DNA of 64,000 nucleotides from Spongiibacter sp. IMCC21906. GTDB taxonomy: Bacteria > Pseudomonadota > Gammaproteobacteria > Pseudomonadales > Spongiibacteraceae. Location: NCBI RefSeq assembly GCF_001010805.1, contig NZ_CP011477.1, positions 2,846,501-2,910,500 on the forward strand, written 5' to 3'. Both the position numbers and the translations under genes were made by a program. Shown here piece by piece: positions 28,376 to 57,648 of the stretch (position 1 is its first letter; the number at the start of each line of letters is the position of its first letter). Under the pieces are notes generated by a model. The model saw nothing but the letters and a program-made list of their open reading frames with translations, made no database searches and had not been told where the DNA came from.

Positions 28376-28858
28376 ATGAATAAAAACCACGACTCAACCA
28401 CCACAACAATCCACACCCGCAATCCAGTCGCGCTGCAAAACATTGAAATCATTAAGGAATTCTTTTCACTTTACTTAAAAGACAAGGCTCGGTTTTACAC
28501 GCTCTGGGTAGACGACATCCCTAGCGTTCTGACACCTTTTGTGAGTGATGATGTTGCGGTGTGTAAAATTGGTGTCCACTCCGGCTGGGACGCTGTCAAA
28601 GCCTTCTGGGACCCAATATTTGATGAAATGACGGGTTCTTTTGAGTGGACAATTGATGACTTTATTGTCGGGGAAGACCCCAATACGATTGTCACTAAAG
28701 CCCAGAGTGCAATTGATGTGCAAACTGGCGACACATGGGGAAACAAGCACCTTCGATACAATGGTCGCTATGTGCAAATATTTCGCTTTAGAGACGGTAA
28801 AGTAGAATCATTTGAAGAATACTATGACACCGCATTGCTCAACGCTCAATATTCATAA
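28376..28858 (+). CDS. SnoaL/NTF2-like protein
   Basis: A 160-residue protein with the cone-shaped NTF2-like fold pattern. There is an N-terminal helix (VALQNIEIIKEFFSLYLKDK), a second helix region (GWDAVKAFWDPIFDEM) and a C-terminal sheet ending FRFRDGKVESFEEYYDTALL, which is very typical of SnoaL-like proteins. Such proteins act as isomerases, hydrolases or dehydratases on small ring compounds, or as binding partners. AAAGGA lies six bases before the ATG. It is the first gene of the rightward trio and stops 18 bases before the PQQ dehydrogenase ATG. The substrate is unknown. Confidence 0.85.
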   Translation: MNKNHDSTTTTIHTRNPVALQNIEIIKEFFSLYLKDKARFYTLWVDDIPSVLTPFVSDDVAVCKIGVHSGWDAVKAFWDPIFDEMTGSFEWTIDDFIVGEDPNTIVTKAQSAIDVQTGDTWGNKHLRYNGRYVQIFRFRDGKVESFEEYYDTALLNAQYS

Positions 28859-28876
28859 ATAAGGGGCTTGAGTGCA

Positions 28877-31070: not shown

Positions 31071-31874
31071 ATGGGAAAATTAAGCAACAGAAAGGTCATC
31101 GTTACTGGCGCTGCTCAAGGTATGGGTCGCGCTATTGCTATTGAGGCCGCCCGGGAGGGTGCCAGTTTCGTTACCATTGTAGACATTAAAGACAGCGGCG
31201 AAGATACCGCCAATGAAATCCGGCAAATGGACTGTCAGGCATTATTTATAAAAACAGACCTCAGCAAACTGTCAGATATAGAACATATGATCAACAGTTC
31301 CGCAGAGGCTGCAGGTGGCATTGACGTATTAATCAACAATGCTGGCCTAACCGATGACGGTGCTACAGGCGGCCCCCAGACCCTTGATTCATTAACAGAA
31401 GAGACCTGGGATTTGCTAATGAACATTAATGTTAAAGCCATCTGGAGAGCAACCCGACTTGCCCTGCCCCACCTTAAAAACTCAAGCTTATCTCCCGCAG
31501 TGGTTAACGCAGCATCTGTGGCCAGCTCAGTGGCCTACCCAGGAATTCCTGCTTACTCGGTTACCAAAGGCGCGGTAAAATCCCTGACTCAATCCATGGC
31601 GGTTGATTTAGCAGCCTATAATATCCGCTGCAACGCCTACGCACCCGGCGCCATAGAAACGCCCATGCTTACCCATAGCCTTGATACGTTTTCATCTGAA
31701 GAGCGAGCCATTACCGAATCAAGACTCTCTGGACCTCATTTGATTAAACGGCTTGGTAAGCCGGAAGAAGTGGCAAAGCTGGTATGTTTTCTAGCCTCCG
31801 AAGAAGCCTCGTTTCTTACTGGCTCGATCTACCAGATCGATGCAGGAACACTTGCTTGGCGAGGCAATGAGTAA
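31071..31874 (+). CDS. SDR family oxidoreductase
   Basis: A 267-residue classical short-chain dehydrogenase with TGAAQGMGRAIA (residues about 12-23), NNAG, a Ser in NAASVASSV and YSVTKGAVK as the YxxxK pair. Asp at the end of strand two (VDIKD) suggests NAD preference. It starts one base after the stop of the PQQ dehydrogenase, with its AGGAG inside that gene, so the two are tightly coupled. It may oxidise or reduce a hydroxyl group of the same substrate in the cytoplasm. It ends the rightward trio at a strong hairpin. Confidence 0.92.
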   Translation: MGKLSNRKVIVTGAAQGMGRAIAIEAAREGASFVTIVDIKDSGEDTANEIRQMDCQALFIKTDLSKLSDIEHMINSSAEAAGGIDVLINNAGLTDDGATGGPQTLDSLTEETWDLLMNINVKAIWRATRLALPHLKNSSLSPAVVNAASVASSVAYPGIPAYSVTKGAVKSLTQSMAVDLAAYNIRCNAYAPGAIETPMLTHSLDTFSSEERAITESRLSGPHLIKRLGKPEEVAKLVCFLASEEASFLTGSIYQIDAGTLAWRGNE

Positions 31875-32084: not shown

Positions 32085-33368
32085 CTAATTACCATACCAA
32101 TCTTTAGCTAGCCGTTTTCCAGCCAATCCATAAAAGATAGTCGCCAATGGGTAAAGCACCACGGCACAACTTAATAATGAGTATCGCAAGGACTCTTGAA
32201 CATAACGATCTGCAAAGAAATCTGACAATGCCCCCAAAATCGTCGCACCCAAACCCAGACCAATGAGGTTAACAACAAATAAATAGCAGGCAACGATGGT
32301 GGTTCGCATTGCAGGTGGCCCCAGATTCTGGATGGCCACCGCAACCGGTGAAGAGGCAATCACTCCGCAGGCCTGGGGAATAATAAACAGCAAAAATGCC
32401 AAAGTAAGATTATTCACCCACAGCGCACCCAACAACAGTGGCAAACCAATAAGAAAAGCAAGGCTGGGTATATAGCCGTAATAAGCAGGTTTCGCACTTC
32501 CTAGTTTGTCACCAAACCAACCACCTAAAAAGTTACCCAACAAACCACCGATCAACACCAACGCGCCAAACAGCCAGGCCGTATATTCCAGACCCAGACC
32601 ATGGCTACGCTGAAAAAACGTTGGCAACCAAAAACCAAAGCCGTATAAAACCATTGCACCAGTCGCCATTCCCAAGGATAAAAGCCAAAAACTCGGACAG
32701 CTAAACACGTGACGAAATGTGGCTGGAATACTGTATTCAATTTGGTCTGAGATATTATCGTAACGCCCTCTTTTGGGTTCCCTTACCGTCCAGAAAATTA
32801 ATGGCGCAATCAACACACCAACAAGCCCGAGCGTAATAAATGCCACCCGCCAGCCATAAGTTGCTGCAAGTACCCCACCAACCACTAAGCCGAGTGCCGA
32901 GCCTATCGGTATACCGCAGCTCATCACTGCCAATGCACGAGTGCGTTGATGAGGAGGAAAATAATCCGCCAGAATAGAGTACGCAGGCGCGACACCTCCC
33001 GCTTCCCCTACCCCCACACCTAAGCGGAACCCAAATAACTGCACAAAGTTTGCTGCGACACCACATAACGCTGTAAAGCCACTCCAAATCGCAATTGAAG
33101 CGCCAAGAATACGCTTGCGATTAGATCGGTCTGCCAGCAGAGCAATCGGTATTGCAAACGTTGAATAAAATAATGCAAAGGCGAAACCACCCAGCAAGCC
33201 CAACTGGAAATCAGTTAGTCCTAGTTCATTTTGAATCGGCACAGCAAGTATTGCGATCAACTGCCGGTCCATATAATTCAGGGTGTAGTGCAAAAAAATT
33301 AATGCCAAAACATAGAATTTGTAGTTTGGCTTCTCTGCAAATGGCGTATCGAGCAGCTTATTATTCAA
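32085..33368 (-). CDS. MFS transporter, spinster-like
   Basis: A 427-residue inner-membrane carrier with twelve predicted helices. The first loop has YMDRQLIAILAVPIQNELGL, and LLADRSNRKRILG is the MFS motif A after helix two; a second half-repeat is seen around residue 225 onward. The DRQ-containing start resembles the spinster-like MFS group common in catabolic clusters of Proteobacteria. It probably takes up an organic acid. It starts at a TTG (33368) with AGG seven bases before. It lies 137 bases downstream of the acyl-CoA synthetase gene, with a large inverted repeat in the gap. Confidence 0.92.
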   Translation of the reverse strand: MNNKLLDTPFAEKPNYKFYVLALIFLHYTLNYMDRQLIAILAVPIQNELGLTDFQLGLLGGFAFALFYSTFAIPIALLADRSNRKRILGASIAIWSGFTALCGVAANFVQLFGFRLGVGVGEAGGVAPAYSILADYFPPHQRTRALAVMSCGIPIGSALGLVVGGVLAATYGWRVAFITLGLVGVLIAPLIFWTVREPKRGRYDNISDQIEYSIPATFRHVFSCPSFWLLSLGMATGAMVLYGFGFWLPTFFQRSHGLGLEYTAWLFGALVLIGGLLGNFLGGWFGDKLGSAKPAYYGYIPSLAFLIGLPLLLGALWVNNLTLAFLLFIIPQACGVIASSPVAVAIQNLGPPAMRTTIVACYLFVVNLIGLGLGATILGALSDFFADRYVQESLRYSLLSCAVVLYPLATIFYGLAGKRLAKDWYGN

Positions 33369-33505: not shown

Positions 33506-35167
33506 TTATGGCTTAACGCTAATGCCCGAAAGCTCTACATCCCAGCAGTCTTTGGTAACACCTTCGTCCTTAAGCTTATATTTTTCTACTCGATCACTCG
33601 GTGTTTTTGGCAAGCTGTCGCGATAGGCAATGTAACGAGGCACACAGAAATAGGCCATCCGCGCTTTACACCATGCAATTAAATCCGCATAGGGCAAGGT
33701 ATGTCCTTCTTTCAATACCACCACTGCTTTGACATCCTCTTCACCTAAGTCAGACGGCACACCAACTACGCAAGACTCCATAACAGAATCATGCTCATTG
33801 ATGACGCCCTCAACTTCGAAGGACGAGATATTTTCTCCCCTGCGCCGGATTGCTTGTTTTTTCCTATCGGCATAATAGAAATAGCCATCTTCATCCTGGC
33901 GAGCCAGGTCGCCAGTGTGGAACCAGAAATTTTTCATTAGCTCCATACTTTCCGAAGGCATTTTGTAATACCCCGAGGTCCCCAAATACATACTTTCAGG
34001 CTGAACAATAACCTCACCAACGGTGCCAGTTTCAACCTCTTCGTCATTCTCGTCGACCAGTTTGACTCGATAACCATTAATCGGCTTACCGCAAGAACCT
34101 GGTCGCCGGGCATCATAGGGGTTGACGAGATTAAACAGGCACTCGGTAGCGCCATACAATTCAAGTAAACTCACATCAAAGCGTTTTTGAAAGGCATCCC
34201 ACAATTGCACCGGCGCAGCCGCACCTACCATCAAACGAACTGGATTATCCCAATCATCAGGCTTTTCATCCTGTTTCATGAGAATAGACACCATACCGCC
34301 GATGTAATTTACCACCGTACAATTCCAGCGCCGTACATCATTAAACATCTGACTGGCAGAAAACCGCTCGACTATGACCGCCTTACTATCAGCCAATATC
34401 GCTGGCAAGATTGTCATACCTCTAGCAGCAGAATGAAAAAATGGCATCGCGGTATACAGCACATCTTCGTTAGTAATACGGCAGAACTCCACCAGTGACA
34501 TTGCCGCGCGATACCAATAATGGTGCGAGATCATCACGCCTTTGGAACGGCCCGTGGTACCCGATGTGTACAAAATACTCGATAAGTCTTTAAAACAACC
34601 CGATGCTTCTGCCGCAGTGTCTGGTTGCTTGCTAAATTCTGAGTACAACAGCGTTTTCAAATTTGGATAATTGCCAGCCTCAGTAGTTTGTTGTTCACGA
34701 TCGACAATCACAATAAAACCAAGTTTTGGCAGCTGATCAATAATCTTCTCAACATGCTCTAAATAGTCGCGATAGATAACGAGACCAACACAGTCTGCAT
34801 AATCGATCTGATAGGCGAGAGATGACCCTCGCTGAGCAGTATTAATGGGCACATCGACAGCGCCAATCCGGTTTAATCCAAACCAGCAGTACAGATGCTC
34901 GGCACAATTTGGCAGCATGACGGCAACGTTCTGACCTTCGTCCACACCCAGCTCTCGAAAGCCATTTGCGGCCTGATTAATACTGGCATTTAACAGCTGA
35001 AAACTGATCGGCTCATCACCAAATTGAAAAATGATGTGATTTGGTAGCGCCTTGGCTTTGTCATCAATTATTTTAGAAATAACACGATCACACTGGGGAT
35101 AACCCTTCAGCGTCCAGCCAGTGTCATTGCTTTCTACAGGATTCGATTTTCTCGCAAGGTCAGTCAT
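33506..35167 (-). CDS. AMP-dependent acyl-CoA synthetase/ligase
   Basis: Activates a carboxylate to its CoA thioester via an acyl-adenylate. The 553-residue protein has the phosphate-binding loop LYTSGTTGRSKGVMISH (near residue 200), LLELYGATECLF, WFHTGDLARQDEDGYFYYAD and RRRGENIS at the domain hinge, and a late catalytic Lys in the C-terminal lobe. It resembles the CaiC/crotonobetaine-CoA ligase branch of the family. GGAGA precedes ATG 35167. As the CoA-forming enzyme next to an acyl-CoA dehydrogenase and a dehydratase-type radical enzyme, it probably supplies their substrate; the acid is unknown. Confidence 0.93.
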   Translation of the reverse strand: MTDLARKSNPVESNDTGWTLKGYPQCDRVISKIIDDKAKALPNHIIFQFGDEPISFQLLNASINQAANGFRELGVDEGQNVAVMLPNCAEHLYCWFGLNRIGAVDVPINTAQRGSSLAYQIDYADCVGLVIYRDYLEHVEKIIDQLPKLGFIVIVDREQQTTEAGNYPNLKTLLYSEFSKQPDTAAEASGCFKDLSSILYTSGTTGRSKGVMISHHYWYRAAMSLVEFCRITNEDVLYTAMPFFHSAARGMTILPAILADSKAVIVERFSASQMFNDVRRWNCTVVNYIGGMVSILMKQDEKPDDWDNPVRLMVGAAAPVQLWDAFQKRFDVSLLELYGATECLFNLVNPYDARRPGSCGKPINGYRVKLVDENDEEVETGTVGEVIVQPESMYLGTSGYYKMPSESMELMKNFWFHTGDLARQDEDGYFYYADRKKQAIRRRGENISSFEVEGVINEHDSVMESCVVGVPSDLGEEDVKAVVVLKEGHTLPYADLIAWCKARMAYFCVPRYIAYRDSLPKTPSDRVEKYKLKDEGVTKDCWDVELSGISVKP

Positions 35168-35289: not shown

Positions 35290-36162
35290 TTAGGAAGATC
35301 TATCACTTAAAACTTTAGGTAGCACTGAACGGTGAAAGCCATCAAAAGGCTGATTTTTTTCACTCTTTTCCAACGTCCAAGTTTGTCTGGAATTTGGGGC
35401 GCCCCCATCAACTCGAATACAAGTACCCGTAATATAGGCGGCAGCCGGTGAGAGCAGGTAAGTAATTGCTGCTGAGACTTCAGACTCCGTGCCGTAACGT
35501 TGTAGAGGTACACGCTCAGGGTACTCGTATAACTTCTTTCTGATTTCGGGCGCGTAAGTATCAAAACCGCTGGAGGCAATACCACCTGGCGCTACACAAT
35601 TGACGCGTACATTTGCCGCTGCCCATTCGCAAGCAGCACTTTCAGACAGTGTCAGCATGCCGCCTCGGGCCGCACCAGAATGGGCAAAATCAGGCCAGCC
35701 ATTCCAGATATCGGCAATCATATTAACGATACTGCCACCATGTTCCGCCATCCAACGGTTATAGACTTCACGCATAAAAATAAACCCGCCAGTGAGATTA
35801 TTTTTAACCACAGCCTCAAAACCTTTAGTAGAAATAGTATTCATCGGTGTCCGGTACTGTCCGCCGGCATTGTTAACCAAACCATGGATACAGCCATATT
35901 TTTCTAGCGTTTTATCAATAACAGACTTAACGTTTTCCTCATCGCGAATATCACAGGTCAAGGTCATAACCTCGCCACCATCAGCAACAATTTCGTCTCT
36001 TACTTCATCCAGCTTTTCTTGGCTGCGCCCAACAATGACAATATTAGCGCCTAAAGACGCCAGTTCATGGGCAGTACACCGGCCGATTCCACTACCACCG
36101 CCAGTAATAATAATGGTCTGATCCTTAAATAAGCTTGCTGCAAATACTGATTGATAACCCAT
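35290..36162 (-). CDS. SDR protein of the enoyl/dienoyl-CoA reductase branch, non-canonical active site
   Basis: A 290-residue Rossmann protein with TGGGSGIGRCTA near residue 19 and NNAGGQYRTPM. The canonical YxxxK is absent: the aligned segment is AHSGAARGGMLTL, with Ser and Arg at the usual Tyr and Lys positions. The HSGAAR-x-G pattern is characteristic of peroxisomal trans-2-enoyl-CoA reductase and 2,4-dienoyl-CoA reductase SDRs, so an enoyl-CoA reductase role is more likely than alcohol oxidation. It ends 128 residues later with PAAAYITGTCIRVDGG and a 40-residue tail. It is followed by the synthetase gene after 122 bases and preceded by the APH-like gene 13 bases away. Confidence 0.85.
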   Translation of the reverse strand: MGYQSVFAASLFKDQTIIITGGGSGIGRCTAHELASLGANIVIVGRSQEKLDEVRDEIVADGGEVMTLTCDIRDEENVKSVIDKTLEKYGCIHGLVNNAGGQYRTPMNTISTKGFEAVVKNNLTGGFIFMREVYNRWMAEHGGSIVNMIADIWNGWPDFAHSGAARGGMLTLSESAACEWAAANVRVNCVAPGGIASSGFDTYAPEIRKKLYEYPERVPLQRYGTESEVSAAITYLLSPAAAYITGTCIRVDGGAPNSRQTWTLEKSEKNQPFDGFHRSVLPKVLSDRSS

Positions 36163-36175
36163 ATTAATAACCCAC

Positions 36176-37195
36176 TTACGCTTCTTTCATTAAAATATCG
36201 ATGCCACGCTTGGCATAAGCTTGAGCAAGACGATTTCCTGTTTTTGTTGCATCAGAAGTAAAGGCATTACCCGCTATACCTCTTGCCGCAATGCCTGCGC
36301 TACCCACCGCCGCCCTGAACATGGCAAACACTCTATGGAAGGTTGTAACTCGCTCCTCACACCCCGACAGCTCGTAATACCAGTCGAGATACTCAGACTC
36401 TTCTGGAATACCCAGGGCCGACAAATCCAGTCCCAGCAGCCCCCCGTTTTCGTCCGGTGCCATATGGTAGGCCTGAGTGTTAAACGCCACATCGGCCAGT
36501 GGGTGCCCAAGGGTCGATAGCTCCCAATCCAGAATGCCAACGACCTCAGTGGATTGCGGATGAAACATGACATTCGGCACCCGGAAGTCGCCGTGGCAAA
36601 TGCTGAGTAACTCACTGTCGGGAATATTGTCTGCCAGCCAGCTAATCATCTGGTCAATAAAGGGATTTTCATCAACGTCGAATTTTTCCCACTGCCTAGA
36701 CCAGCCATGGAACTGCCGCACAAAGTAGTTACCCGGCTTGCCGTAATCAGTTAAACCTGCACCTTGCCAGTCAAACTTATGCATTGCGGCCATTGCTTCG
36801 CACATAGCGCGATAATAACCTCGCCGACTGCCCACGACTCCCGGCAGCTCATATTCATCAAACACCCGACCGTCGATTTTTTCCATAATGTAAAATGGCG
36901 TGTCGAGAACATCTTTGTCGGCGTGGTACAGCATCGGCTCCGGAACGGGAACACCTGAACCATGCAAGGCGCTCATGACACGAAATTCTCGATCGATAGC
37001 ATGAGCTGACTTTACGGAAACGGACGCGGGCTGCTTCCGCAACACCGCCTGCCAATCTCCCACCTTGACAAAATACGTCGGATTAGAAAATCCACCTGCC
37101 GTTCGAGAGACAGATAAATCCCCCTGAAGACCGGTAAAATTGTTCCGTAAAAAATCCGACACCGCGTCGAGTGGCAATTCGTTGTTACTCATCAT
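36176..37195 (-). CDS. APH-like phosphotransferase family protein (ACAD10/11 N-domain type)
   Basis: A 339-residue kinase-fold protein of the aminoglycoside phosphotransferase family. It has the catalytic HGDFRVPNV (His-Gly-Asp...Asn) near residue 207 and the metal-binding DWELSTLG near 228. This sub-type is regularly found beside acyl-CoA dehydrogenases, and in animals it is fused to one (ACAD10/ACAD11), where it phosphorylates 4-hydroxyacyl-CoA so that the hydroxyl can be removed. The gene overlaps the acyl-CoA dehydrogenase stop by four bases (ATGA), which supports a joint role. A function in hydroxyacyl-CoA metabolism is inference. Confidence 0.9.
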   Translation of the reverse strand: MMSNNELPLDAVSDFLRNNFTGLQGDLSVSRTAGGFSNPTYFVKVGDWQAVLRKQPASVSVKSAHAIDREFRVMSALHGSGVPVPEPMLYHADKDVLDTPFYIMEKIDGRVFDEYELPGVVGSRRGYYRAMCEAMAAMHKFDWQGAGLTDYGKPGNYFVRQFHGWSRQWEKFDVDENPFIDQMISWLADNIPDSELLSICHGDFRVPNVMFHPQSTEVVGILDWELSTLGHPLADVAFNTQAYHMAPDENGGLLGLDLSALGIPEESEYLDWYYELSGCEERVTTFHRVFAMFRAAVGSAGIAARGIAGNAFTSDATKTGNRLAQAYAKRGIDILMKEA

Positions 37196-38433
37196 CGTGC
37201 CGCTTTACCAAAGTTAAACAGGTATTGGGCCACTCTTCGCATTTGCACTTCTTCAGAGCCTTCGGTAATGCGATAACGGCGATGATGACGATAGATATGC
37301 TCAAAGGGCATCGCCCGGGTATAGCCCAAACCGCCGTGAACCTGCATCGCTCGATCTGCTGCGTTACAGCACAGCCGATTGGCGCGGAAGTTACATATCG
37401 ACACCTTGTCACTAATCTCGATAGGATCAATCTCATCCATCAATGCCGCGGTTTTAAACAGATAATTACGCAGCATTTCACACTCTGCATAGAGCTCAAC
37501 AAGCGGCCATTGGATACCCTGGTTAACGGCCAAAGGTTTACCAAAAACAATACGCTCACTGGCATATTTTGCCGCTTCCGTAATACAGTAACGGGCAGCG
37601 CCAATACTGGCAGCCGCTTGACGAATGCGGTTTTCGTGAACAAAACGTTGAGCGATGATAAGACCTTCACCTTCCTTGTGAAGAATGGCTGAGTCAGGCA
37701 CTTTCACATTGGTAAAGCCCACTTCAGGGTGATCACTGGGCATATTGAATGTCCAGTGATTGAACAATATTTCTACACCCGGTGTAGACATGGGAACAAT
37801 AAACGCTGTCACCCCTTTAGCATCGCCATCTTTGCCTGACGTACGCGCAAATACCAAGTCGGCCTTGGCCCGATACACTTGGCTATTCCAGCGTTTAATG
37901 CCGTTAATCACCCATTGATCGCCCTCTTTATGGGCCGTAGTATCGATCCAGGTTGCATCACTACCATGGCCCGGTTCAGTCAACGCAAAAGCAAGATGAT
38001 TCTCTCGGCCGATAATGCCTTCGATGTATTGCTTTTGATCTTCGGTGCCATATTCATTAATGATAGGGACGATAGGGTAGTTACCTACAATAGATGACTC
38101 ATCCTGCAGGTCGTTGTGTAAACCTAAGCCCTTTGCTGCTAAATGTTCACGAATAGCTGCATTAGCTAGATTAGAACCTTCTTGTCCGCCACAAGATTTG
38201 GGCAAACAATAGCGCAAGTGACCCGCTTTATCGGCACGGCGCTCCATTTCTGCAATCAGGTCTTCCCACTCTTTGCGAGGCACACCGTCGTTATCCCAGT
38301 CAGTGCGAGCATGTTCACGGCGGTAATCAAAAAACTGAATATTCTCTTCTTCAAGCGGCTTTATTTCCGCTTCAATAAATTTGTCCAGCTCTTCAAGTTT
38401 GTTAGTAATCTCTACCGGTAATTCAAAATTCAT
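37192..38433 (-). CDS. Acyl-CoA dehydrogenase
   Basis: A flavoprotein of 413 residues that introduces a double bond into an acyl-CoA and feeds electrons to ETF. It carries the FALTEPGHGSDATWIDTTA signature near residue 150, MQVHGGLGYTRAMPFEHIYR in the C-terminal domain and the catalytic base position in YRITEGSEEVQ. It belongs to the long-chain/ACAD11-like group by general appearance. The ATG at 38433 is chosen because GGAG lies nine bases upstream; a TTG (38448) and ATG (38439) also lie in frame. It is coupled to the downstream APH-like gene. Confidence 0.94.
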   Translation of the reverse strand: MNFELPVEITNKLEELDKFIEAEIKPLEEENIQFFDYRREHARTDWDNDGVPRKEWEDLIAEMERRADKAGHLRYCLPKSCGGQEGSNLANAAIREHLAAKGLGLHNDLQDESSIVGNYPIVPIINEYGTEDQKQYIEGIIGRENHLAFALTEPGHGSDATWIDTTAHKEGDQWVINGIKRWNSQVYRAKADLVFARTSGKDGDAKGVTAFIVPMSTPGVEILFNHWTFNMPSDHPEVGFTNVKVPDSAILHKEGEGLIIAQRFVHENRIRQAAASIGAARYCITEAAKYASERIVFGKPLAVNQGIQWPLVELYAECEMLRNYLFKTAALMDEIDPIEISDKVSICNFRANRLCCNAADRAMQVHGGLGYTRAMPFEHIYRHHRRYRITEGSEEVQMRRVAQYLFNFGKAAR

Positions 38434-38510
38434 TAACATATACTCCAATTATTAATATTGTTACTTCAATGCCACCGAAATCATCAGCTCAATTAGCGGT
38501 GTTAGTTGTT

Positions 38511-39683
38511 CTAGATAGTCGACGCTCTACCTGCCATTTCCATAAAGGTTTCTAAGCGTGTTTTTACTGACTCCATAGGCATTTCTTCATGCTCAGTTTC
38601 TATCAGCAAGTTGGGAATCCCCACTGCTTCAAAAGCTTCTTTTATCTCTGGATAAAAATACATATGAGGCTCGCAAAACTTCACCATCAAGATAATGACA
38701 CCTTGGGCTTTTGCGTTTTTAACAGAATTTAACAAGTAGGTATGCCAATCGTGTTCTCTGGCAGAGCGGGTGGGGCACGGCACGCGCTTGTTACGCTCCA
38801 AATACCAATTTGTTAATGCATCGAGGGGCTCATCTGTTATCTCCACATCGGTAGAGATGTAGCGGTAACCCGTATATAAATCGTCGGCGACAACCAAACC
38901 GCCACACTCCTCGACCAAATCAAGAAGTTCTTTTTTAGGTGCGTGGCACATATGTCCGGACAGAAATACGGGTACCTTGTCTGCGAAGGAAGAGTTTTCA
39001 CCGGTGCCTTGTTCTTGAAGCGCATCCAGCACTTTCTCTAACTTTTCCGTATGTTCGGCACGGTCCATCGTCATACTGGCCTGCACAATATGCATAAGAT
39101 CACTTGAAGAAATGCGTATCTTGCCTGTCATACGCATATCATAAAGGCTTCTTAATAATGCACGGCTCTTGTTAAACACCTCAACGCTGGCATTTATATC
39201 GTCGTTGGAAATTGTCACACCAAGCACGTTTTGCAACTGATTTCTTAGCTCACCGACAACGCGACGACTTTCATTGAAGGCCCAGGGCGCCTCAATGGTC
39301 GACACTAGCTGGTCATACAAAACCGGTACTTCTGGCATATGATTACGCATGACATCTGCAGTACCCAGAAGCTGAACACAATGATCGCCTAATAAAATCG
39401 CATCTAAAAATTGAAATGCGTCACTCACTGTCTGATTCACTAAACTGCGATTAAAGCCGCAATAAAAGCTGAATATACGCTTCAGCCCTATCGTAACTGG
39501 CTCGTCATCTTCTTGAAGCACCACTGGCAGAGCGCCTGCAGCATGGGCCAATTCCGCAGGAAAATTCATTGGCAAAATGCCAACGACTGGCCGTTTATGC
39601 TCTTCTTTCCATTTTTTGGCGTAATCCAAAGGATGTTGCGCAGCAAAAATGAAGTCTTCCATTAAACTATCGTTGATTGACAT
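38511..39683 (-). CDS. 2-hydroxyacyl-CoA dehydratase/benzoyl-CoA reductase family subunit (HgdB/BcrC-like)
   Basis: A 390-residue iron-sulfur protein of the HgdB/BcrC/BadD family, one half of a radical dehydratase or reductase. Three cysteines at the expected spacing would hold a [4Fe-4S] cluster: Cys75 in FSFYCGFNRS, Cys102 in LGDHCVQLLG and Cys337 in VKFCEPHMYFYPE. VFLSGHMCHAP and CPTRSAREHDW are further family-like blocks. Length matches HgdB/BcrC (about 380). Its partner at 41572-42906 and the activase at 43005-43952 are encoded upstream with two SDR genes in between. Enzymes of this type are oxygen-sensitive. Whether it dehydrates a 2-hydroxyacyl-CoA or reduces an aromatic ring cannot be decided from sequence alone. 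Confidence 0.9.
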   Translation of the reverse strand: MSINDSLMEDFIFAAQHPLDYAKKWKEEHKRPVVGILPMNFPAELAHAAGALPVVLQEDDEPVTIGLKRIFSFYCGFNRSLVNQTVSDAFQFLDAILLGDHCVQLLGTADVMRNHMPEVPVLYDQLVSTIEAPWAFNESRRVVGELRNQLQNVLGVTISNDDINASVEVFNKSRALLRSLYDMRMTGKIRISSSDLMHIVQASMTMDRAEHTEKLEKVLDALQEQGTGENSSFADKVPVFLSGHMCHAPKKELLDLVEECGGLVVADDLYTGYRYISTDVEITDEPLDALTNWYLERNKRVPCPTRSAREHDWHTYLLNSVKNAKAQGVIILMVKFCEPHMYFYPEIKEAFEAVGIPNLLIETEHEEMPMESVKTRLETFMEMAGRASTI

Positions 39684-39783
39684 TAACGTTCTACCTTCAT
39701 ATAAAATTCAAACGACATGGACATAAACTATTTCTCGCACTTGGGAGTAAGTGACACATCAAGTGCACAGAATTTTTTTGTCC

Positions 39784-40569
39784 TTATGCAAACCTGCCGT
39801 AAGGATGAGTACTACTAATCCCACCATCCGCTGCCAGAAGCTGCCCATCCATATATGAGCTGTCATCACTGGCCAAAAATGCGACCACCGCGGCAATTTC
39901 TTCAACCCGACCTGTTCTTTTTAATGTTGTCAGCTGGCCCATTTTACTTTCTGAGCCTCGTGCCCTAGCCATCTCAAAAGTAGATGCGGTTAACTTGGTT
40001 TCGCACAACCCTGGCAACACTGCATTAACGCGAATTTGTGTACCCGCAAAGGCATTAGCCGCATTCATAGTCAGGCTATTAACAGCGGCTTTACAGGCGC
40101 TATAAGCCGCTGTTCCGCCATTAGCTCTAAGCGAGCCGGTTGAGGAATTCAGCACAATCGAACCGTAACCGGTCGTTTTCATATGACGACCTGCGTATTT
40201 CACCCCAAGAAAGGCGCTAATGGTGTTATCTCTAAACTGGGTTTCCCACGCCTCAACCGTTTGATCGAGTAGAGAAACAAAACTGTCGGTATTACCCGCA
40301 TTAGCAAAGAAAATTTCCAAACCACCCAATTTCTCTACGCAATAATCAACACTTCCAGAAATATCACTTTCTTTAGTTGCGTCAGCAACAAAAGCGTCTG
40401 CTATGCCGCCTTGCTCGCTAATGATGGAAACCGTTTCTTCAATATTTTCTCGGGTTCGGCCTACTGCAAGTACCGCAGCACCTTCTGAGGCAAAACGTAT
40501 TGCAGTCGCTCGCCCTATTCCACTGCCAGCACCGGTTACTATTGCTCTTTTACCTTTTAATCGCTCCAC
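39784..40569 (-). CDS. SDR family oxidoreductase
   Basis: A 261-residue classical SDR with [20 protein letters not shown], Ser in LNSSTGSL and YSACKAAVN as the intact YxxxK pair. It starts at GTG 40569 with AGGGGA five bases upstream. It lies within the dehydratase/reductase gene set on the same strand, between the HgdB-like subunit and another SDR, so it may act on a 3-hydroxyacyl-CoA or alicyclic alcohol of the same pathway. The start [14 protein letters not shown] is normal for the family. Confidence 0.92.
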
Positions 40570-40671
40570 GCCTATCCCCTCTTTTTATACTTAGCTGCGA
40601 CGCTATATTGCTATGTGACCTTGCCATTGAGATGGCGATATCACTTATCGATTGCAGCTAAACGACGTACA

Positions 40672-41469
40672 TTACGCTGCTGAAATCCCACCATTGACAC
40701 TAATGGCCTGCCCCGTAATTTTTGATGATTCTGGGCTAGTCAGAAATATAATGGTTTTTGCTAAATCCTCTGGCACACACACACCTAAATGTGCAGCCTG
40801 AGTTGCCTTGGAAAACAATTTTCCCGCAAACTCCTGGGTCATCATGCGTTGATTAGTCAGCGTGCCTTCGATTACCGATGGCGTAAGAACATTAACTCTA
40901 ATGCCGTTGCGCTTGGTTTCCATTGCCATCGCTTTGGTAAACATAATAATGGCCGCCATCGCTGCGCCTAGCACTGTTTCTCCTGGCGTTGTCGTCTTAC
41001 CCGCATCTGAAGCAATATTAACGATGGCACCACCACCGTTACTTGACATCATCGGTAGCAAAATCCTGCTAGTGAGCATGGGCGCCATTACTTGATCAAA
41101 AATAATGCCTTGTATTTCAGGTACAGGAATATCTTTAAGTAATACCGGGCCGGCCAAACCTACTGTCGAATTCACTAAAATATCGACACCAGATAAGAAA
41201 TCCCACGCTGCATTACACACATCGTCGGCACCACTTTCTGTATTACAGTCACCGGCGATAAATTTTATATTCGCCTGGGGATAATGCTCTTTAACATAAG
41301 CACAAGCTTGTTCGCCACGCTCAGCATTACGGCCGTTGACAACAATGCCTCTGGCACCGGCTTTCGCATATAACAATGCTGCAGATAAGCCGACACCCGA
41401 GGTACCACCTGTTATCAACACACCTGATTCAGAAATTTCTTTGGGCTCATACTGCGCAGACTTGCTCAT
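40672..41469 (-). CDS. SDR-fold protein with degenerate active site
   Basis: A 265-residue Rossmann protein with TGGTSGVGLSAA near residue 20, so it probably binds NAD(P). The NNAG motif is replaced by VNSTVG, and the YxxxK segment reads VLGAAMAAIIMF, with Leu and Met at the Tyr and Lys positions. The remainder, including SKITGQAISVNGG, is normal. The changes suggest either altered chemistry (for instance enoyl-CoA reduction or isomerisation of CoA thioesters) or a non-catalytic role. The gene is intact and lies between the two dehydratase-type subunit genes. Confidence 0.85.
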   Translation of the reverse strand: MSKSAQYEPKEISESGVLITGGTSGVGLSAALLYAKAGARGIVVNGRNAERGEQACAYVKEHYPQANIKFIAGDCNTESGADDVCNAAWDFLSGVDILVNSTVGLAGPVLLKDIPVPEIQGIIFDQVMAPMLTSRILLPMMSSNGGGAIVNIASDAGKTTTPGETVLGAAMAAIIMFTKAMAMETKRNGIRVNVLTPSVIEGTLTNQRMMTQEFAGKLFSKATQAAHLGVCVPEDLAKTIIFLTSPESSKITGQAISVNGGISAA

Positions 41470-41571
41470 ATCAGATAATTCTCATTTCATTATTTATAAT
41501 TTTGGCATAACCACACCATCGTTTTAGTGGCTATGAACATGCTTACTCATAACCACTAAAAGAGGTAAATA

Positions 41572-42906
41572 TTAGGCGACGTCTTTTTTCTCACTCATGG
41601 CTTCAACCATGGCTTCTAAGCGAGTGTTCAATAGCTCATCTTTATAGAAAGACTCGTCTGCCACATCGCCTTCAAAGAAGATGGCTTGTCTATTGTTGCG
41701 CACTGCCGACTCGGTGATTAAAAACTGCTGATTTGTCATACCACGACAAGTTCGTGAGGCGTGGCAGACAACACCATCTATATCAAAGGTATCGCAGACT
41801 TTCTCAATTTCACCGATCATGATTGGTGCACCGTGATTGTTTGGACAGATCAGATAGTTCTGAGCCATCCCACGCACTGGATTACTTAAATCAATCAGAT
41901 CTGGTTGCTGCCAGAAAGACATATGCGTGTAACGACCTGCGACAACGGTGGCATCGACTGCCGCAAACTTGTCAGCCAACCAACCCACTTTGTTCCAATT
42001 CATCATGCCATCAAAGAAGAGACGATACTTCTCGTTTGGCACCGCGCCTTCACCGCGCTCGATCCGTTCCTGTATCTCGTCTTTAAGAGACTGAAAATAA
42101 TCAACCAGGGCTTGCTCACCTGGCAGAAAATTGACGTGGGCGATACTGACAATCCAATCAAAAAAACTAGCGGGAGCGGGTTTAGCTTTGCAAAGTTCCA
42201 TAGCTTCTAAGCGTAATTCAGCGGCTTTTTTAATGTAGCCCATAACTTCGCTAAGTCGGTCCCAGTCAAATTTTCTACCGGTGTTTTCTTCAAGAAACTT
42301 GGTCATCTCGACAAGCTGCATAGAGACGTAGTCAGACTTCTCCTCCCACTCTTGTCCGTAAAGATAGTCGGCGTCTGGCTTGCCTCCCCACAACAGTGGG
42401 ATATTGACGTTAAAGATGGGGACTTTTTTACCATGCATACGGTACATAAGGTCATCCCATTGCTGCCCTGAACTGCAATAGGGGTAGGCATTAATGATCA
42501 TGTCCGGCAAAGGCAGTTTTTTAATATCCTCTGCTCGTGGATCAGAAGCAGCAATAGTGCCGTCTTCTACCATGCCTTTTTCGATCAAGGCTTGCCCAAT
42601 ATGAGTGCGGGCATAAGAACATAATTCTCGATCAAAGCCTTTATCTTCGCCTGCTTGCTGTGCGTCGCCTTCTAAATGCTTAGCCGCCAAATATGCTGAC
42701 CATGCTTCGCCATGAACCCATGCGAGGTCATGGGCGTGGAAAAAAGGCGGTATATATGTGCCGTTATACCAAACGACTTTTTTACCTTCTTCTTTGGCTC
42801 TAAATAAGCCTTCCCAATAATCATTAACCAGCTTGCCGCCCAGTTTGGTTGCTTTAAGACGGTTCGCCTTTTTATCACTAGCGTGTACACCTTTTTCGTG
42901 TTGCAT
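41572..42906 (-). CDS. 2-hydroxyacyl-CoA dehydratase/benzoyl-CoA reductase family subunit (HgdA/BcrB-like)
   Basis: A 444-residue partner subunit of the HgdB/BcrC-like protein. Candidate cluster ligands are Cys96 (RELCSYART), Cys144 (NAYPYCSSG), and Cys381/Cys387 in VVCHASRTCRGMT. The arrangement, with a mid-protein DMIINAYPYC block and a late DGVVCHASRTC block, is that of BcrB/HgdA proteins (about 430-480 residues). It would form a heterodimer that receives one low-potential electron from the activase. AGGAG precedes ATG 42906. The activase gene lies about 100 bases upstream on the same strand. Confidence 0.9.
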   Translation of the reverse strand: MQHEKGVHASDKKANRLKATKLGGKLVNDYWEGLFRAKEEGKKVVWYNGTYIPPFFHAHDLAWVHGEAWSAYLAAKHLEGDAQQAGEDKGFDRELCSYARTHIGQALIEKGMVEDGTIAASDPRAEDIKKLPLPDMIINAYPYCSSGQQWDDLMYRMHGKKVPIFNVNIPLLWGGKPDADYLYGQEWEEKSDYVSMQLVEMTKFLEENTGRKFDWDRLSEVMGYIKKAAELRLEAMELCKAKPAPASFFDWIVSIAHVNFLPGEQALVDYFQSLKDEIQERIERGEGAVPNEKYRLFFDGMMNWNKVGWLADKFAAVDATVVAGRYTHMSFWQQPDLIDLSNPVRGMAQNYLICPNNHGAPIMIGEIEKVCDTFDIDGVVCHASRTCRGMTNQQFLITESAVRNNRQAIFFEGDVADESFYKDELLNTRLEAMVEAMSEKKDVA

Positions 42907-43004
42907 TGCACTCTCCTGTCTCTATTTCGGCCAAGCCAAATCGTGAGCTCTACATACTGCGTTTATGGTTCTGTAACGTTATTTGTTTACTGTCTATCTT
43001 GGAC

Positions 43005-43952
43005 TCAATTACGACTCACTGTAGTAACTTCTACTACTTGAACCGTGCTTTCTTCGCCCGCCTTTTCTGGATCACCTTTACATTTTGGTACGCAAGCGGC
43101 CATGGCACCGTCCATCTCACCTTCCAGCGCCATATCGCTGCCGTCCAAGGCTTTAATTTCCTTCTGGCTTTTCACATATTCTTCCATCGCCAACAATGCC
43201 GCGCCCAAAGCACCAGCTATTTGCGGCTCGCTCGGCAGCAAAAATTCAGCACCAAATGCTTGCTCAAGGTAATGAACCGCCGCAACGTTCTTAGCGACGC
43301 CACCAGTCATCACGACGGGGCCCTTCTTCCCGACACGGGAAGCCAAGCCTCGAGTTCGGTTTGCTATTGAGGCATGAACGGCACCTAAAACATCTGGCTT
43401 GGCGTGCCCTTCGGCAAGCAAGGAAATCACTTCGCTTTCAGCAAAGGTTGCACACATACTGGAGATCTTCAGGGTGTTTTCGGCCTTCATGGCTTCGGGA
43501 CCCATATCGGCCAGCTCTATATTCATCGCCCTAGCCAACACTTCTAAAAACTTACCCGTTCCCGCAGCACAGCGATCATTCATCGAAAACTGAGAAACCA
43601 CACCTTTATCGTCAATAGAGATAACCTTGCTGTCTTGGCCGCCTATATCGATAACCAATCTTGCCTCCGGAACCATCTCCAGCGCGCCTCGGGCATGACA
43701 GGTGATCTCGGTATAATTTTTATCTGCGATATCCAGCATGCGGCGGCCATAGCCCGTGGATACCGTTTTCACCATATCCTGCTGTTCTAAACCGGCTTCG
43801 TCCAAGGCCCCTTTAATAGAAGCCAAAACGCCATCGTTACTCACCGCACCCATAGATTTAATACATGAACCAACAATATTTTTATTGGCATCTAAGATGA
43901 CCGTCTTTGCCGTGGTTGAACCAAAATCCACGCCCATCACATAAGGTTTCAT
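43005..43952 (-). CDS. Acyl-CoA dehydratase activase (BadF/BcrA/HgdC-type ATPase)
   Basis: A 315-residue ASKHA-fold ATPase that drives an electron into the dehydratase/reductase at the cost of ATP. It shows the phosphate loop GVDFGSTTAKTVILD, the IDIGGQDSKVI block, and the two cluster-bridging cysteines Cys128 (NDRCAAGTGKF) and Cys167 (ISSMCATFAESEV), whose positions match those of HgdC. It has a tail of about 55 residues beyond the usual 260, containing ACVPKC. Only one activase gene is present, so a homodimer is expected. The start is set at ATG 43952 (GAGG five bases upstream); the open frame extends 28 codons further without family similarity. Confidence 0.93.
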   Translation of the reverse strand: MKPYVMGVDFGSTTAKTVILDANKNIVGSCIKSMGAVSNDGVLASIKGALDEAGLEQQDMVKTVSTGYGRRMLDIADKNYTEITCHARGALEMVPEARLVIDIGGQDSKVISIDDKGVVSQFSMNDRCAAGTGKFLEVLARAMNIELADMGPEAMKAENTLKISSMCATFAESEVISLLAEGHAKPDVLGAVHASIANRTRGLASRVGKKGPVVMTGGVAKNVAAVHYLEQAFGAEFLLPSEPQIAGALGAALLAMEEYVKSQKEIKALDGSDMALEGEMDGAMAACVPKCKGDPEKAGEESTVQVVEVTTVSRN

Positions 43953-44467
43953 ACATACCTCAATCAATTTTGCTGAAGAACGAAAACTGCTCCAACGATC
44001 AGTTACGCCCTTTTGCCTACCACCCAACTCAAACATTGCGCGCCACCGTGAGCATCAAGGGCATCACGATCAGCCCACTGGAGGCGATAAAGCAGCTGAA
44101 ACTCAGTATAGATGAGTAAAGCTCACTTAATCAATACGAAATTTGTTTTTACAGTAAAATATTACCATCACTAATGAGTTTAGCTTACATTTATATTCAC
44201 CCCACCTATCTAATGAGTCTATTTAAATACAAGCCCACCAAAGCTTCTGCAGCCTACGTTTAAGCATCTCAGCAGCAAAGCTGCTGAAACCTGAAACCAC
44301 AACAAAAGCAACGAAAACGCAGTTAAAATCCTAAAAAGAGCAAGAAAACTGACATAGATCTGTAGTGAGCACTGACTCACAAGAGCCCCTGTACAAAAGA
44401 GGAATATTTTCGAGTTATCGCGTAACCTTGAAGCCAAAATAAAAAGCCAGTGCCAATAACAAATACA
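43953..44467. other. Intergenic stretch upstream of the activase
   Basis: About 515 bases, AT-rich from about 44100. It holds a short rightward frame with protein-like composition ending at 44119 (possible gene remnant), three copies of ATGAGT/CTAATGAGT (around 44114, 44171 and 44210) and a perfect hairpin at 44269-44287. No intact gene is seen. Confidence 0.45.
44269..44287. repeat. Short perfect hairpin
   Basis: TCAGCAGC (44269-44276) pairs with GCTGCTGA (44280-44287) across an AAA loop. It lies in the non-coding stretch between the divergent activase and outer-membrane-like genes; no U-tract follows on either side. Function is unknown. Confidence 0.4.
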
Positions 44468-45313
44468 ATGCTAAAGTCTGAATATATATCGTTCATCTTT
44501 TCTATGCTCCTCTGCATAAGCCTTGCGAGTCAGCAAGCTCTTGGCAAAAATGAGCCATCCTCATGTGACGCCGCGATCTGCCCTACAACTTCCGCCAAGC
44601 ACAATCGTTTATTGCTAGCGCCTTATGCCTTCATCCCCTCGATAGAGGGCAGGTCTGAAGCACTTGAGATGAAAACAGAATTTGAATATGACGCAAAAGA
44701 ACTGGCAAGCGGTCTCAATCTTGGCGGTTTGGCTTATTTGCAGTGGGACCGGGGGCGGGATTTTTTATATTTTGATGGACTGGGGGTTCGCTATAAAGAC
44801 CGACTTAGTGAGTTTAGAGAAAGACGCTTAAATATTGAGATTGCGTTACTGGAAATCGGTTATGGCCGCAAATTCTGCATCGCTTCCAAGCGCCTCGATA
44901 CAAACTGCACAATTGGCTTTGATCCTTATTTGGGGATCCGTCATTCTCGCTTTAATGTGTCTGCAAAAATTAACGAAGGCGGTCTAGAAGGTTTATTGAT
45001 TAGCCTGTCGGACCTCCCCGACAGCTACCAAGCCAAAGAGCGCTGGCTAGACCCGGTCGTCGGCTTTATTAGCCACTACCAATTAAGCCAACGCAACAGG
45101 CTTTACCTAAAGGCCGACGCCGCTGGCTTAGGCCTGGGTCGCAATGATTATTGGAACATAATGGGATTTTTAAATTTTCAATTAAGCGCGCACTGGAGTG
45201 TTTCTGCCGGTTATAAAGCGACAGAGTTTGATGCAAAATCCGGAGGGGAAAACAAACTAAACCTTAAACTAAGGGCCAGAGGCCCCATAGCCGGTATTAT
45301 TTATTCATATTAG
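44468..45313 (+). CDS. Putative outer-membrane beta-barrel protein
   Basis: A secreted protein of about 281 residues with an N-terminal hydrophobic segment (FIFSMLLCISLASQQALG), followed by alternating polar/hydrophobic strands and a C-terminal aromatic residue (GIIYSY) as in outer-membrane barrels. I do not recognise a named family with certainty; the glycine- and aromatic-rich strands (DFLYFDGLGVRYKDR, HWSVSAGYKATEF) fit a small outer-membrane protein of the MipA or porin-like kind. The start is uncertain: ATG 44468 or GTG 44450, neither with a clear ribosome-binding site. It stands alone and converges with nadA. Confidence 0.7.
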   Translation: MLKSEYISFIFSMLLCISLASQQALGKNEPSSCDAAICPTTSAKHNRLLLAPYAFIPSIEGRSEALEMKTEFEYDAKELASGLNLGGLAYLQWDRGRDFLYFDGLGVRYKDRLSEFRERRLNIEIALLEIGYGRKFCIASKRLDTNCTIGFDPYLGIRHSRFNVSAKINEGGLEGLLISLSDLPDSYQAKERWLDPVVGFISHYQLSQRNRLYLKADAAGLGLGRNDYWNIMGFLNFQLSAHWSVSAGYKATEFDAKSGGENKLNLKLRARGPIAGIIYSY

Positions 45314-45352: not shown

Positions 45353-46396
45353 TTAACGCTTACCAGCACCAAAGTCCAACATACGGGTCAACGGCTTCAT
45401 TGCATCTATCGCGATGGCAGGGTCAACAAAAATTTCATTACCGCCATTTTCTAGCACCGCTACTAAATTATCCAACGCATTCATTGCCATCCACGGGCAA
45501 TTTGCACAACTGCGACATGTGGCACCACTACCCGCAGTGGGTGCAATAATAAATTCCTTATCGGGCACCAACTGCTGAAGCTTGTAGAAAATACCCTGGT
45601 CGGTCGCCACAATCATTTGTGGATTAGGAAGGTCTTTAGCGGCATTGATAATCTGAGTGGTAGAGCCAACCACATCGGCTAATTCAACAACGGATGCAGG
45701 GGATTCGGGATGAACCAAGACCGCAGCATCTGGATAAACTTGCTTCAACTCCAAAATGCCTTGGGCTTTAAACTCTTCGTGAACAATACAAGCACCATCC
45801 CAAAGCAATACATCTGCGCCGGTCTCTCTGCGCACATAATCACCTAAGTGCTTATCGGGTGCCCAAAGAATCTTCTCGCCTTTGCTATCAAGGTAATCCA
45901 CCACATCCAAAGCAATACTAGAGGTCACCACCCAGTCTGCCCGAGCTTTTACCGCCGCTGAAGTGTTGGCATAAACTACCACAGTACGATCTGAATGCTG
46001 ATCACAAAAGGCCGCAAACTCATCCGCAGGACAACCGATATCCAGTGAGCAGGTAGCCTCCAGGGTCGGCATCATCACCGTTTTTTCTGGCGAGAGGATC
46101 TTGGCGGTTTCACCCATAAATTTTACCCCAGCCACAATCAACTGAGACGCTGGATGGTCACGACCAAAACGAGCCATTTCTAAAGAGTCCGAAACACAGC
46201 CACCGGTTTCTTCCGCCAATGCTTGAATCTCAGGATCGGTATAGTAATGGGCCACTAAAACCGCATCGCGAGCAATGAGCAGCTCCTTAATACGCTGGCG
46301 CAATTCCTCGCGCTGCGCGGAAGGAATTACAGGCTGCTCTTGAAGACTCGCCAAATGATCGCGAACGATGTCTTGGGCTGTTGCGTGTTCCGCCAT
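45353..46396 (-). CDS. nadA: Quinolinate synthase
   Basis: Condenses iminoaspartate with dihydroxyacetone phosphate to quinolinate in NAD biosynthesis, in the cytoplasm. The 347 residues are typical of the proteobacterial form. Three cysteines for the oxygen-sensitive [4Fe-4S] cluster are recognisable in [27 protein letters not shown] and [12 protein letters not shown]. The substrate-binding start [19 protein letters not shown] is clear. It is monocistronic here; neither nadB nor nadC is adjacent. Confidence 0.97.
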
Positions 46397-53181: not shown

Positions 53182-53206
53182 TATTATTCCCCGTTTGAAG
53201 TGATGA

Positions 53207-53986: not shown

Positions 53987-54034
53987 ATATCGCGTCCAGA
54001 AAATTCGCACGCCTCGCCAAGCGAGGCATAAGAT

Positions 54035-54547: not shown

Positions 54548-54548
54548 C

Positions 54549-55802: not shown

Positions 55803-55878
55803 GCTCTCCTCCCAGAATGTTCTTATCTTTTGTTTTCAGTGAATTGCTAATAATCAGTCATTGTTATGTATTTAGTTA

Positions 55879-56586: not shown

Positions 56587-56597
56587 CGCCACGCTCC

Positions 56598-57632: not shown

Positions 57633-57648
57633 GGTCGTGTTCTCCAGC

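Follow-up and report, generated by a model that had tools for sequence, protein, structure and literature searches.

We analysed a 64,000-nucleotide window of Spongiibacter sp. IMCC21906 (contig NZ_CP011477.1, positions 2,846,501 to 2,910,500; 'the window' means this whole stretch). Three intact open reading frames (ORFs) on its minus strand encode a radical enzyme system of the BCR/HAD (benzoyl-CoA reductase/2-hydroxyacyl-CoA dehydratase) family: two are for the enzyme subunits and the third is for the ATP-dependent activase. Enzymes of this family produce some of biology's most reducing electrons, and the characterised members known to us come from anaerobes or denitrifiers.

The beta subunit gene (38511-39683, P0001; HgdB/HadC/BcrC-like, 390 aa) matches PF06050 with 241.7 bits (E-value 2.1e-71), and the closest solved chains of its product are BzdN, HadC and MbdN. 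The gene for the alpha, catalytic subunit (41572-42906, P0002; HgdA/HadB/BcrB-like, 444 aa) matches the same model with 170.7 bits (8.4e-50), with HadB as its top match by sequence. The activase gene (43005-43952, P0003; HgdC/HadI-like, with a C-terminal CxxxC tail) matches PF01869 (8.6e-60) and TIGR00241 (247 bits, cut-off 125 bits) and, among solved chains, HadI (232 bits) and HgdC (214 bits). Its ORF spans 43005-44036 (343 aa, whose numbering is used below for activase residues); the conserved part starts near an internal ATG at 43952, the likely start codon. The original prediction placed the system at 38511-43952, and this upper end matches the ATG, but the unit is larger, an island of 21436-45352 described below.

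Two PF06050 subunits are thus encoded together with a BadF/HgdC-type activase, bearing out the predicted complete system (PF06050 twice, PF01869, TIGR00241). Relatives were sought by scanning GTDB species genomes with two clade peptide patterns; 93 were confirmed and the best 80, at 71 distinct loci, were kept. All counts over the 71 loci (L numbers below) rest on these 80, so that the distribution is not exhaustive; some loci end at contig ends, and their ORFs were called with homology support. A chance match is excluded by the E-values and by these relatives at 71 other loci, and we regard the three genes as confirmed, by sequence, to be a genuine, complete ATP-activated iron-sulphur radical enzyme system of BCR/HAD type. 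The genes are already annotated at family level, RefSeq labelling homologues '2-hydroxyacyl-CoA dehydratase family protein' and 'acyl-CoA dehydratase activase'.

Equivalog models are matched well below their cut-offs, for beta by HadC (157 of 700 bits), BcrC (154 of 421) and BzdN (154 of 454), and for alpha by HadB (156 of 750), BcrB (101 of 487) and BzdO (78 of 449). Filing the enzyme under HadBC was ruled out on these scores. An AlphaFold (AF2) model of alpha (pLDDT 82, pTM 0.85) matched MbdO (6.8e-20, TM-score to target 0.78), HadB (1.3e-19, 0.85) and BzdO (1.9e-19, 0.75) in Foldseek; the matches are nearly equal, and the fold therefore gives no decision on enzyme type.

Gene order is activase-alpha-SDR-SDR-beta. 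The two short-chain dehydrogenase/reductase (SDR) genes (39784-40569 and 40672-41469) that separate alpha from beta, and the adjoining genes for an acyl-CoA ligase, an acyl-CoA dehydrogenase (ACAD) and an APH-like protein, are as the original prediction described them. From activase to ligase the genes are 13-122 bp apart, with a 4-bp overlap between the ACAD and kinase genes, and by this tight spacing they look like one operon. Unlike the window arrangement, beta lies directly upstream of alpha in 73 of the 79 alpha copies at the 71 loci.

Cluster ligands and a separate clade

Ligands were assigned in a reference alignment of the solved BzdNO, HadBC and MbdNO chains and TIGR02260/TIGR02263-labelled BcrBC. 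The accessible text of PMC11971306 gives C95, C128 and C380 as the BzdO ligands, with Glu65 as the catalytic residue. Alpha C96, C144, C387 and E67 align with these and with HadB; the three cysteines are present in 83 of 83 aligned clade members, and E67 is conserved. At the column of BzdO His131 the clade has an invariant glycine (Gly147), and BcrB and MbdO likewise lack the histidine. Two further alpha cysteines, C239 (82 of 83 members) and C354 (83 of 83), are missing in the reference rows, save for one cysteine at the C239 column (Proteus).

The double-cubane cysteines of BzdN are C36, C73, C100, C263, C293 and C327 (PMC11971306, accessible text). Window beta has P38, C75, C102, Y270, C303 and C337 at these columns, four cysteines of six. 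With P38 and Y270 in place of C36 and C263 a double cubane is not expected; but columns 1 and 4 are also occupied by other residues in HadC, BcrC and MbdN, and since BcrC and MbdN lack the full set too, the trait fails to separate HAD from BcrC/MbdN. C75, C102, C303 and C337 occur in 78 of 78 clade members and C246 in 77 of 78.

The activase cluster cysteines C156 and C195 (54 of 54 members) align with those of HadI and HgdC. Beyond them lies a C-terminal extension with a CxxC or CxxxC motif, found in 55 of the 56 clade activases examined and missing in four non-clade activases compared; its cysteines are C315 (54 of 54) and C319 (53 of 54). The solved chains of HadI (276 residues, matched to 266), HgdC (270, matched to 261) and MbdQ (269, matched to 262) end before this tail. 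An AlphaFold activase model (pLDDT 83) shows the extension as a long helix (residues 271-314) that runs up to the motif; confidence at the motif itself is low. In these alignments the marks of the clade are the two extra alpha cysteines and the CxxC/CxxxC activase tail, and the tail motif might provide an additional metal or redox site that spans the homodimer. The cluster cysteines proposed in the original prediction are present by alignment (alpha C96/C144/C387, beta C75/C102/C337, activase C156/C195), and none of them is missing. A degenerate homologue was set aside in view of the strict conservation of the ligands across the clade.

IQ-TREE phylogenies place the clade on one side of a branch with support of 100/100 for alpha (38 of 57 rows), 100/100 for beta (24 of 34) and 100/99 for the activase (20 of 27); the rows were picked from larger sets, and the PDB references are partial chains. 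Each of the three window proteins belongs to this one deep clade, which stands apart from the HadBC, BcrBC, BzdNO and MbdNO rows on stems of 4.6 (alpha), 1.7 (beta) and 4.5 (activase) changes per site. References for alpha were HadB, BzdO, MbdO, a TIGR02260-labelled BcrB, a Bcr-like row (L092) and unlabelled homologues. No characterised member was found inside the clade among the tree rows, HgdA, LcdA and FldB being outside the trees, and to that extent the phylogeny agrees with the system being distinct.

By title, the 71 loci all belong to Pseudomonadota or Actinomycetota. Carriers include Rhodococcus, Nocardia, Gordonia, Pseudonocardia, Amycolatopsis, Nocardioides and Saccharopolyspora among Actinomycetota and, among Pseudomonadota, Paracoccus, Mesorhizobium, Novosphingobium, Sphingopyxis, a Rhodoferax metagenome-assembled genome (MAG), Zhongshania and others. 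The distribution is patchy. Among 398 sampled Pseudomonadota genomes only the host gave clade-level matches (next best E-value 1e-32), and among 296 sampled Actinomycetota genomes only the genome at the centre of the sample did (next best 6e-55). Four of 18 genomes of the host genus, host included, have a clade copy; the other three carriers hold a second type, 50-52% identical to window alpha, so that the island copy is known from the host genome only (18 genomes). In the alpha tree its neighbour is Novosphingobium colocasiae (L027; 100/93).

The host itself has a second copy of alpha, beta and activase (L005 8782-12255; G000:C1 about 730,781-734,254), which is 50, 41 and 51% identical to the respective window proteins and adjoins genes for a TetR regulator, an acyl-CoA ligase, a TonB receptor and an SDR. 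In the alpha and activase trees it pairs with a Hydrocarboniphaga MAG within a mainly actinobacterial part. Tandem beta-alpha-beta-alpha genes occur in the Rhodoferax MAG (L015 8728-13965) and in a Burkholderiales MAG (L017); the two copies in L015 sit on separate sub-branches, which suggests that they act on two different or consecutive substrates.

Other divergent genes resembling 2-hydroxyacyl-CoA dehydratase genes were also seen. One in Novosphingobium ES2-1 (L107 7890-9191), found with TRAP transporter genes, encodes an alpha that in alignment is missing the third cysteine and the catalytic glutamate; others in Rhizobium leguminosarum (L109 3887-6333) stand with two activase genes side by side.

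Literature searches, with most subscription journals outside their scope, found no paper that combines '2-hydroxyglutaryl-CoA dehydratase' with Rhodococcus, and none that deals with this clade or connects the family with that genus or with any other aerobe. For '2-hydroxyacyl-CoA dehydratase' in aerobic Actinobacteria the only paper that came up concerns Anaerosomatales, as far as the retrieved texts go. The accessible text of Rhodococcus naphthenic-acid and genome-comparison papers (PMC5906575, PMC4591350) contains neither 'benzoyl-CoA reductase' nor 'acyl-CoA dehydratase activase'. This deep, aerobe-associated clade with its own cysteine signature is apparently uncharacterised.

Lifestyle was scored in 38 genomes, many of them drafts (the host and 37 chosen from the 71 loci), by haem-copper oxidase (COX1), anaerobic ribonucleotide reductase (NrdD) and NarG over its curated cut-off. 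COX1 was present in all 38 carriers and NrdD in one (L018, Paracoccus alkenifer); 18 of 38 had NarG over cut-off and 20 did not. The host genome (3.48 Mb) has three haem-copper oxidase genes, with no NrdD and no NarG over cut-off. The predicted aerobic life of the host is well supported by these markers, and that of most of the 38 carriers is likely. Nitrate respiration is possible in about half of the carriers. We infer oxygen tolerance of the enzyme only from the lifestyle of its hosts.

A catabolic island and its neighbours

The enzyme genes lie in a 23,917-bp catabolic island (21436-45352) between an M48 peptidase gene (19981-21435) and nadA (45353-46396). Of 17 congeners, 13 have homologues of these flanking genes as a convergent pair with a gap of 28-386 bp, and one has them in tandem, 189 bp apart; in the other three they are not together (in two of these they are on different contigs). 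Close together in most congeners and 23,917 bp apart here, they bound what is, judged by this comparison, an inserted island that defines a gene set. Its GC content is 46.4% (right flank 47.5%, left flank 50.7%), and the best match to its P450 in other congeners is 44%.

The left part of the island carries, on the minus strand, genes for a TetR-family regulator (21508-22245; PF00440; homologue at 15 of 71 loci), a cytochrome P450 of the P450terp (CYP108) group (22401-23702; P450terp, 1cpt, 470 bits; P450tol, 420 bits), an aldehyde dehydrogenase (23728-25221; PF00171, 505.7 bits) and a TonB-dependent receptor (25765-28068; PF00593, PF07715). On the plus strand follow genes for a SnoaL-like protein (28376-28858; PF12680, 3.7e-7; 69% identical in L033; weak matches only in the PDB), a PQQ-dependent alcohol dehydrogenase with a cytochrome c domain (28868-31069; PF01011, PF13442) and SDR1 (31071-31874; PF13561; 57% identical in N. 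colocasiae L033). The minus strand then encodes an MFS transporter (32085-33368; PF07690), the AMP-forming acyl-CoA ligase (33506-35167; PF00501, 234 bits) and SDR2, which is 2,4-dienoyl-CoA-reductase-like (35290-36162; PRK07677, 199 bits, under the cut-off of 318; 69-77% identical in at least nine loci). Beside these lies the gene for an APH-fold kinase resembling the ACAD11 kinase domain (36176-37195, minus; PDB 3dxp 4.2e-76, ACAD11 8v3v 5.6e-58), a candidate hydroxyacyl-CoA kinase by sequence. The ACAD gene (37192-38448, minus, exact start uncertain; PF00441, 140.8 bits) has 70-77% identical homologues in L035, L027, L047, L069 and L019. Between the enzyme subunits, also on the minus strand, lie SDR3 (39784-40569; PF13561, 175.8 bits; 73-75% identical in L015, L017 and L028) and SDR4 (40672-41469), the SDR most often linked to the enzyme. 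The 287-aa ORF at the island end (44450-45313, plus) matches no Pfam family and has no counterpart at the compared loci. A single contig of N. colocasiae (L027 and L033) carries matches to 15 of the 18 island genes at 24-76% identity, among them the ligase at 24-26% and the TetR gene at 33-39%; it has an additional P450 at only 25%.

Outside the island lies an aromatic meta-cleavage-type cluster (51331-61509) with genes for a ligase, an FAH-type hydrolase, a Rieske oxygenase, a DmpG-like aldolase, an acetaldehyde dehydrogenase, an alpha/beta hydrolase and a glyoxalase/dioxygenase-superfamily protein. This cluster was set aside as context for the enzyme because of its position. The original argument for an aerobic pathway from the neighbourhood stands for the P450 and PQQ dehydrogenase, which share the island, but not for the Rieske oxygenase (54549-55802).

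Neighbours at the 71 loci were counted as similarity clusters, each named after one representative. The commonest were SDR4 (52 loci), a second-type acyl-CoA ligase (51) and the activase (48; a looser BLAST count finds an activase-like ORF at 55), followed by a PaaX-type regulator (30), a CaiB-type CoA-transferase (27) and LivF/LivG-type ABC ATPases (22/19). Linkage to alicyclic-type catabolic genes is seen in a cyclohexanecarboxyl-CoA-dehydrogenase-like ACAD at 23 of 71 loci (representative 391 of 575 bits) and BadI/MenB-like proteins at 11.

The island P450 offers a further clue to the substrate, its best match being P450terp, the alpha-terpineol methyl hydroxylase. One Rhodococcus ruber plasmid carries both the module and, about 30 kb away, a 46% identical homologue of this P450. 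A steroid substrate was rejected, the natural CYP125/CYP142 chains scoring about 200 bits or less against 470 for P450terp; a reconstructed 'CYP125MRCA' chain scores 282 bits. In Azoarcus KH32C the module is on plasmid pAZKH at about 363-366 kb, and large enoyl-CoA hydratase, BadI-like and BadH-like genes lie at 391-395 kb, about 27 kb from it. According to the accessible text of PMC4109377, the nearest relatives of MrcD/MrcE, the monoterpene ring-cleavage enzymes of Castellaniella, are KH32C proteins; gene order and annotation suggest that these are the products of the pAZKH ring-cleavage genes. The host has ACAD, BadH-like and BadI-like proteins 74, 59 and 65% identical to those of pAZKH. 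They are encoded away from the island (L125 314-3278 and 11700-13302; G000:C1 about 1,490,314-1,503,302), where a large enoyl-CoA hydratase and an ACAD gene are followed, past a block of lipid genes, by the BadH-like and BadI-like genes. The BadH-like protein scores 310 of 431 bits and the BadI-like one 435 of 468 (MenB model, 363 of 380), all below cut-off. The same host genome thus holds a P450terp-like P450 and BadH/BadI-like proteins under their equivalog cut-offs, and the context points to alicyclic, probably terpenoid, acids.

A proposed dehydratase-type step and its alternatives

Our preferred reading, which we hold to be about evenly balanced, is that this apparently uncharacterised, aerobe-associated clade carries out a dehydratase-type radical step in aerobic catabolism of alicyclic or terpenoid acids. 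The homodimeric activase would hydrolyse ATP to place one low-potential electron in the beta-subunit cluster, from which it would pass to the [4Fe-4S]-OH2 site of alpha; there the thioester would become a ketyl radical and water would be eliminated. By analogy with HAD the electron would be recycled over many turnovers, so that an aerobe would need only catalytic amounts of low-potential electrons. The P450terp-like P450, the PQQ alcohol dehydrogenase, the aldehyde dehydrogenase and the ligase may supply the substrate, which would be the CoA ester of an alicyclic or terpenoid acid with a hydroxyl group and would later be handed on to BadH/BadI-type ring cleavage; the ACAD11-like kinase and the ACAD would remove a second, more distal hydroxyl. 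Oxygen would be tolerated, perhaps with the aid of the clade-specific cysteines and the activase tail.

Activases of HAD type deliver one electron per many turnovers, and the ATPase module of class I BCRs is made of two subunits (PMC11971306, accessible text). Pairs of activase-like ORFs within 1.5 kb were found at none of the 71 loci, in a comparison that a very divergent second ATPase would escape; one activase-like ORF was seen at 52 loci and two, apart from each other, at three. With no adjacent second ATPase, a frequent CaiB-type CoA-transferase and an incomplete double-cubane set, a dehydratase-like enzyme is favoured. The original prediction had read the single activase in this way, and one activase gene is indeed present, but beta C246, common to BcrC and MbdN and not found in HadC, keeps a reductase in play. 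Its interpretation overall is partly supported.

Several observations weigh against the dehydratase reading. C246 is part of a mixed pattern, being absent from both HadC and BzdN, and the HadB active-site Ser37 aligns with an invariant Gly49 of clade alpha. By E-value the top Foldseek match is MbdO, with HadB very close behind, and the trees, with their long stems and open forks, give the clade no firm sister group. The stretch examined contains no activase-like ORF at 16 of the 71 loci. A P450 homologue occurs at only 8 of 71 loci, the BadI/MenB-like representative scores 341 of 380 bits with the MenB model and 324 of 468 with BadI, and among the island genes none was recognised as encoding a ferredoxin or a ferredoxin reductase that could serve the P450 or the activase. 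A terpenoid pathway predicts no obvious 2-hydroxy acid, and with NarG in 18 and NrdD in one of the 38 carriers some members of the clade may use the enzyme under anoxia.

An ATP-driven reductase would instead reduce an aromatic or conjugated dienoyl-CoA ring with two electrons per turnover, as class I BCR and MBR do, its product being processed by the dienoyl-CoA-reductase-like SDR and ACADs. The ring context, with BadI/MenB-like and cyclohexanecarboxyl-CoA-dehydrogenase-like genes, would suit such an enzyme, as would the nature of SDR2, C246, the narrow lead of MbdO in Foldseek and the tandem beta-alpha copies of L015 and L017. We nevertheless think it rather unlikely: no second ATPase subunit was seen at the 71 loci, the double-cubane ligands are incomplete (as in BcrC and MbdN) and His131 of BzdO is replaced by the invariant Gly147 (MbdO and BcrB also lack it). 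BCR equivalog scores lie far under every cut-off (78-154 against 421-487 bits), and stoichiometric ATP and electrons are hard to reconcile with an oxygenase-bearing host. The classical four-subunit BCR was rejected because the window system has one activase, incomplete double-cubane ligands and low equivalog scores.

An ordinary oxygen-sensitive enzyme of HAD/BCR type, used only in micro-oxic or anoxic niches of otherwise aerobic bacteria and with no oxygen adaptation, appears improbable. In its favour are respiratory NarG in 18 of 38 carriers, the genes for a Crp/Fnr-family regulator and a cbb3 oxidase at a distance of about 45-52 kb from the module in Azoarcus, and the fact that Azoarcus and Paracoccus include denitrifiers; but the host lacks NrdD and has no NarG over cut-off, its island begins with an O2-requiring P450, and 20 of 38 carriers are without NarG over cut-off. 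Tentatively, obligate aerobes of two phyla may run an oxygen-tolerant ATP-driven radical acyl-CoA enzyme with built-in protection or re-activation, the elements of which would be alpha C239/C354, a five-cysteine beta site and the helical activase extension with its CxxC/CxxxC motif. A redox-inert or repurposed homologue that keeps only the fold, for example for CoA-ester binding or sulphur transfer, is very improbable. A change of function is known within the family, for example in TudS (PMC11971306, accessible text), but in all sampled members of this clade the cysteines for catalysis and electron relay are conserved, along with Glu67 and the cysteines of the activase, and the activase tree shows a clade just as the subunit trees do.

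The occurrence of a separate clade in Rhodococcus, Nocardia, Gordonia, Paracoccus, Novosphingobium and Zhongshania, which respire aerobically, would show that oxygen-breathing cells can run such chemistry and would offer tractable aerobic systems for testing cluster survival in oxygen. It could also supply missing steps in alicyclic and terpenoid acid degradation.

Comparison with known systems

The system resembles HadBC and HadI (PDB 3o3m, 4eht), the (R)-2-hydroxyisocaproyl-CoA dehydratase, in its alpha/beta fold, three-cysteine alpha cluster and catalytic glutamate, in having no full double-cubane set and a single activase gene, and in the CaiB-type CoA-transferase often nearby, HadA being the CaiB-type partner of HadBC. 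It differs in sequence (24% identity by fold search), in its extra alpha C239/C354, beta C246 and activase tail, in its partners SDR4 and acyl-CoA ligase, and in its aerobic hosts.

With BzdNOPQ, BcrABCD and MbdONPQ it shares family, fold, catalytic cluster ligands and an alicyclic context of BadH/BadI-like genes, and with BcrC and MbdN also C246. Unlike class I BCRs it has one activase gene seen rather than two ATPase subunits, and it forms a separate clade; unlike the BZD type its proteins lack BzdN C36/C263 and BzdO His131. The double-cubane cluster protein DCCP and its reductase (6eno, 7yyl) have the same superfamily fold, but the window enzyme has two distinct subunits and its beta lacks the full double-cubane ligand set.

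Two further systems were compared with the island. ACAD10/ACAD11 and Lva-type enzymes are hydroxyacyl-CoA kinase routes; the island kinase matches the ACAD11 kinase domain and its gene overlaps the ACAD gene, but kinase and ACAD are separate genes here, and the top matches of the ACAD are other acyl-CoA dehydrogenases, with ACAD11 lower. The Castellaniella defragrans monoterpene island (ctm/mrc; PMC4109377) has a similar ring-cleavage logic, with a perillyl-CoA-type hydratase, BadH-like and BadI-like enzymes and a dienoyl-CoA-reductase-like SDR; it differs in that no HAD/BCR-type gene or activase is found in the accessible text of that report.

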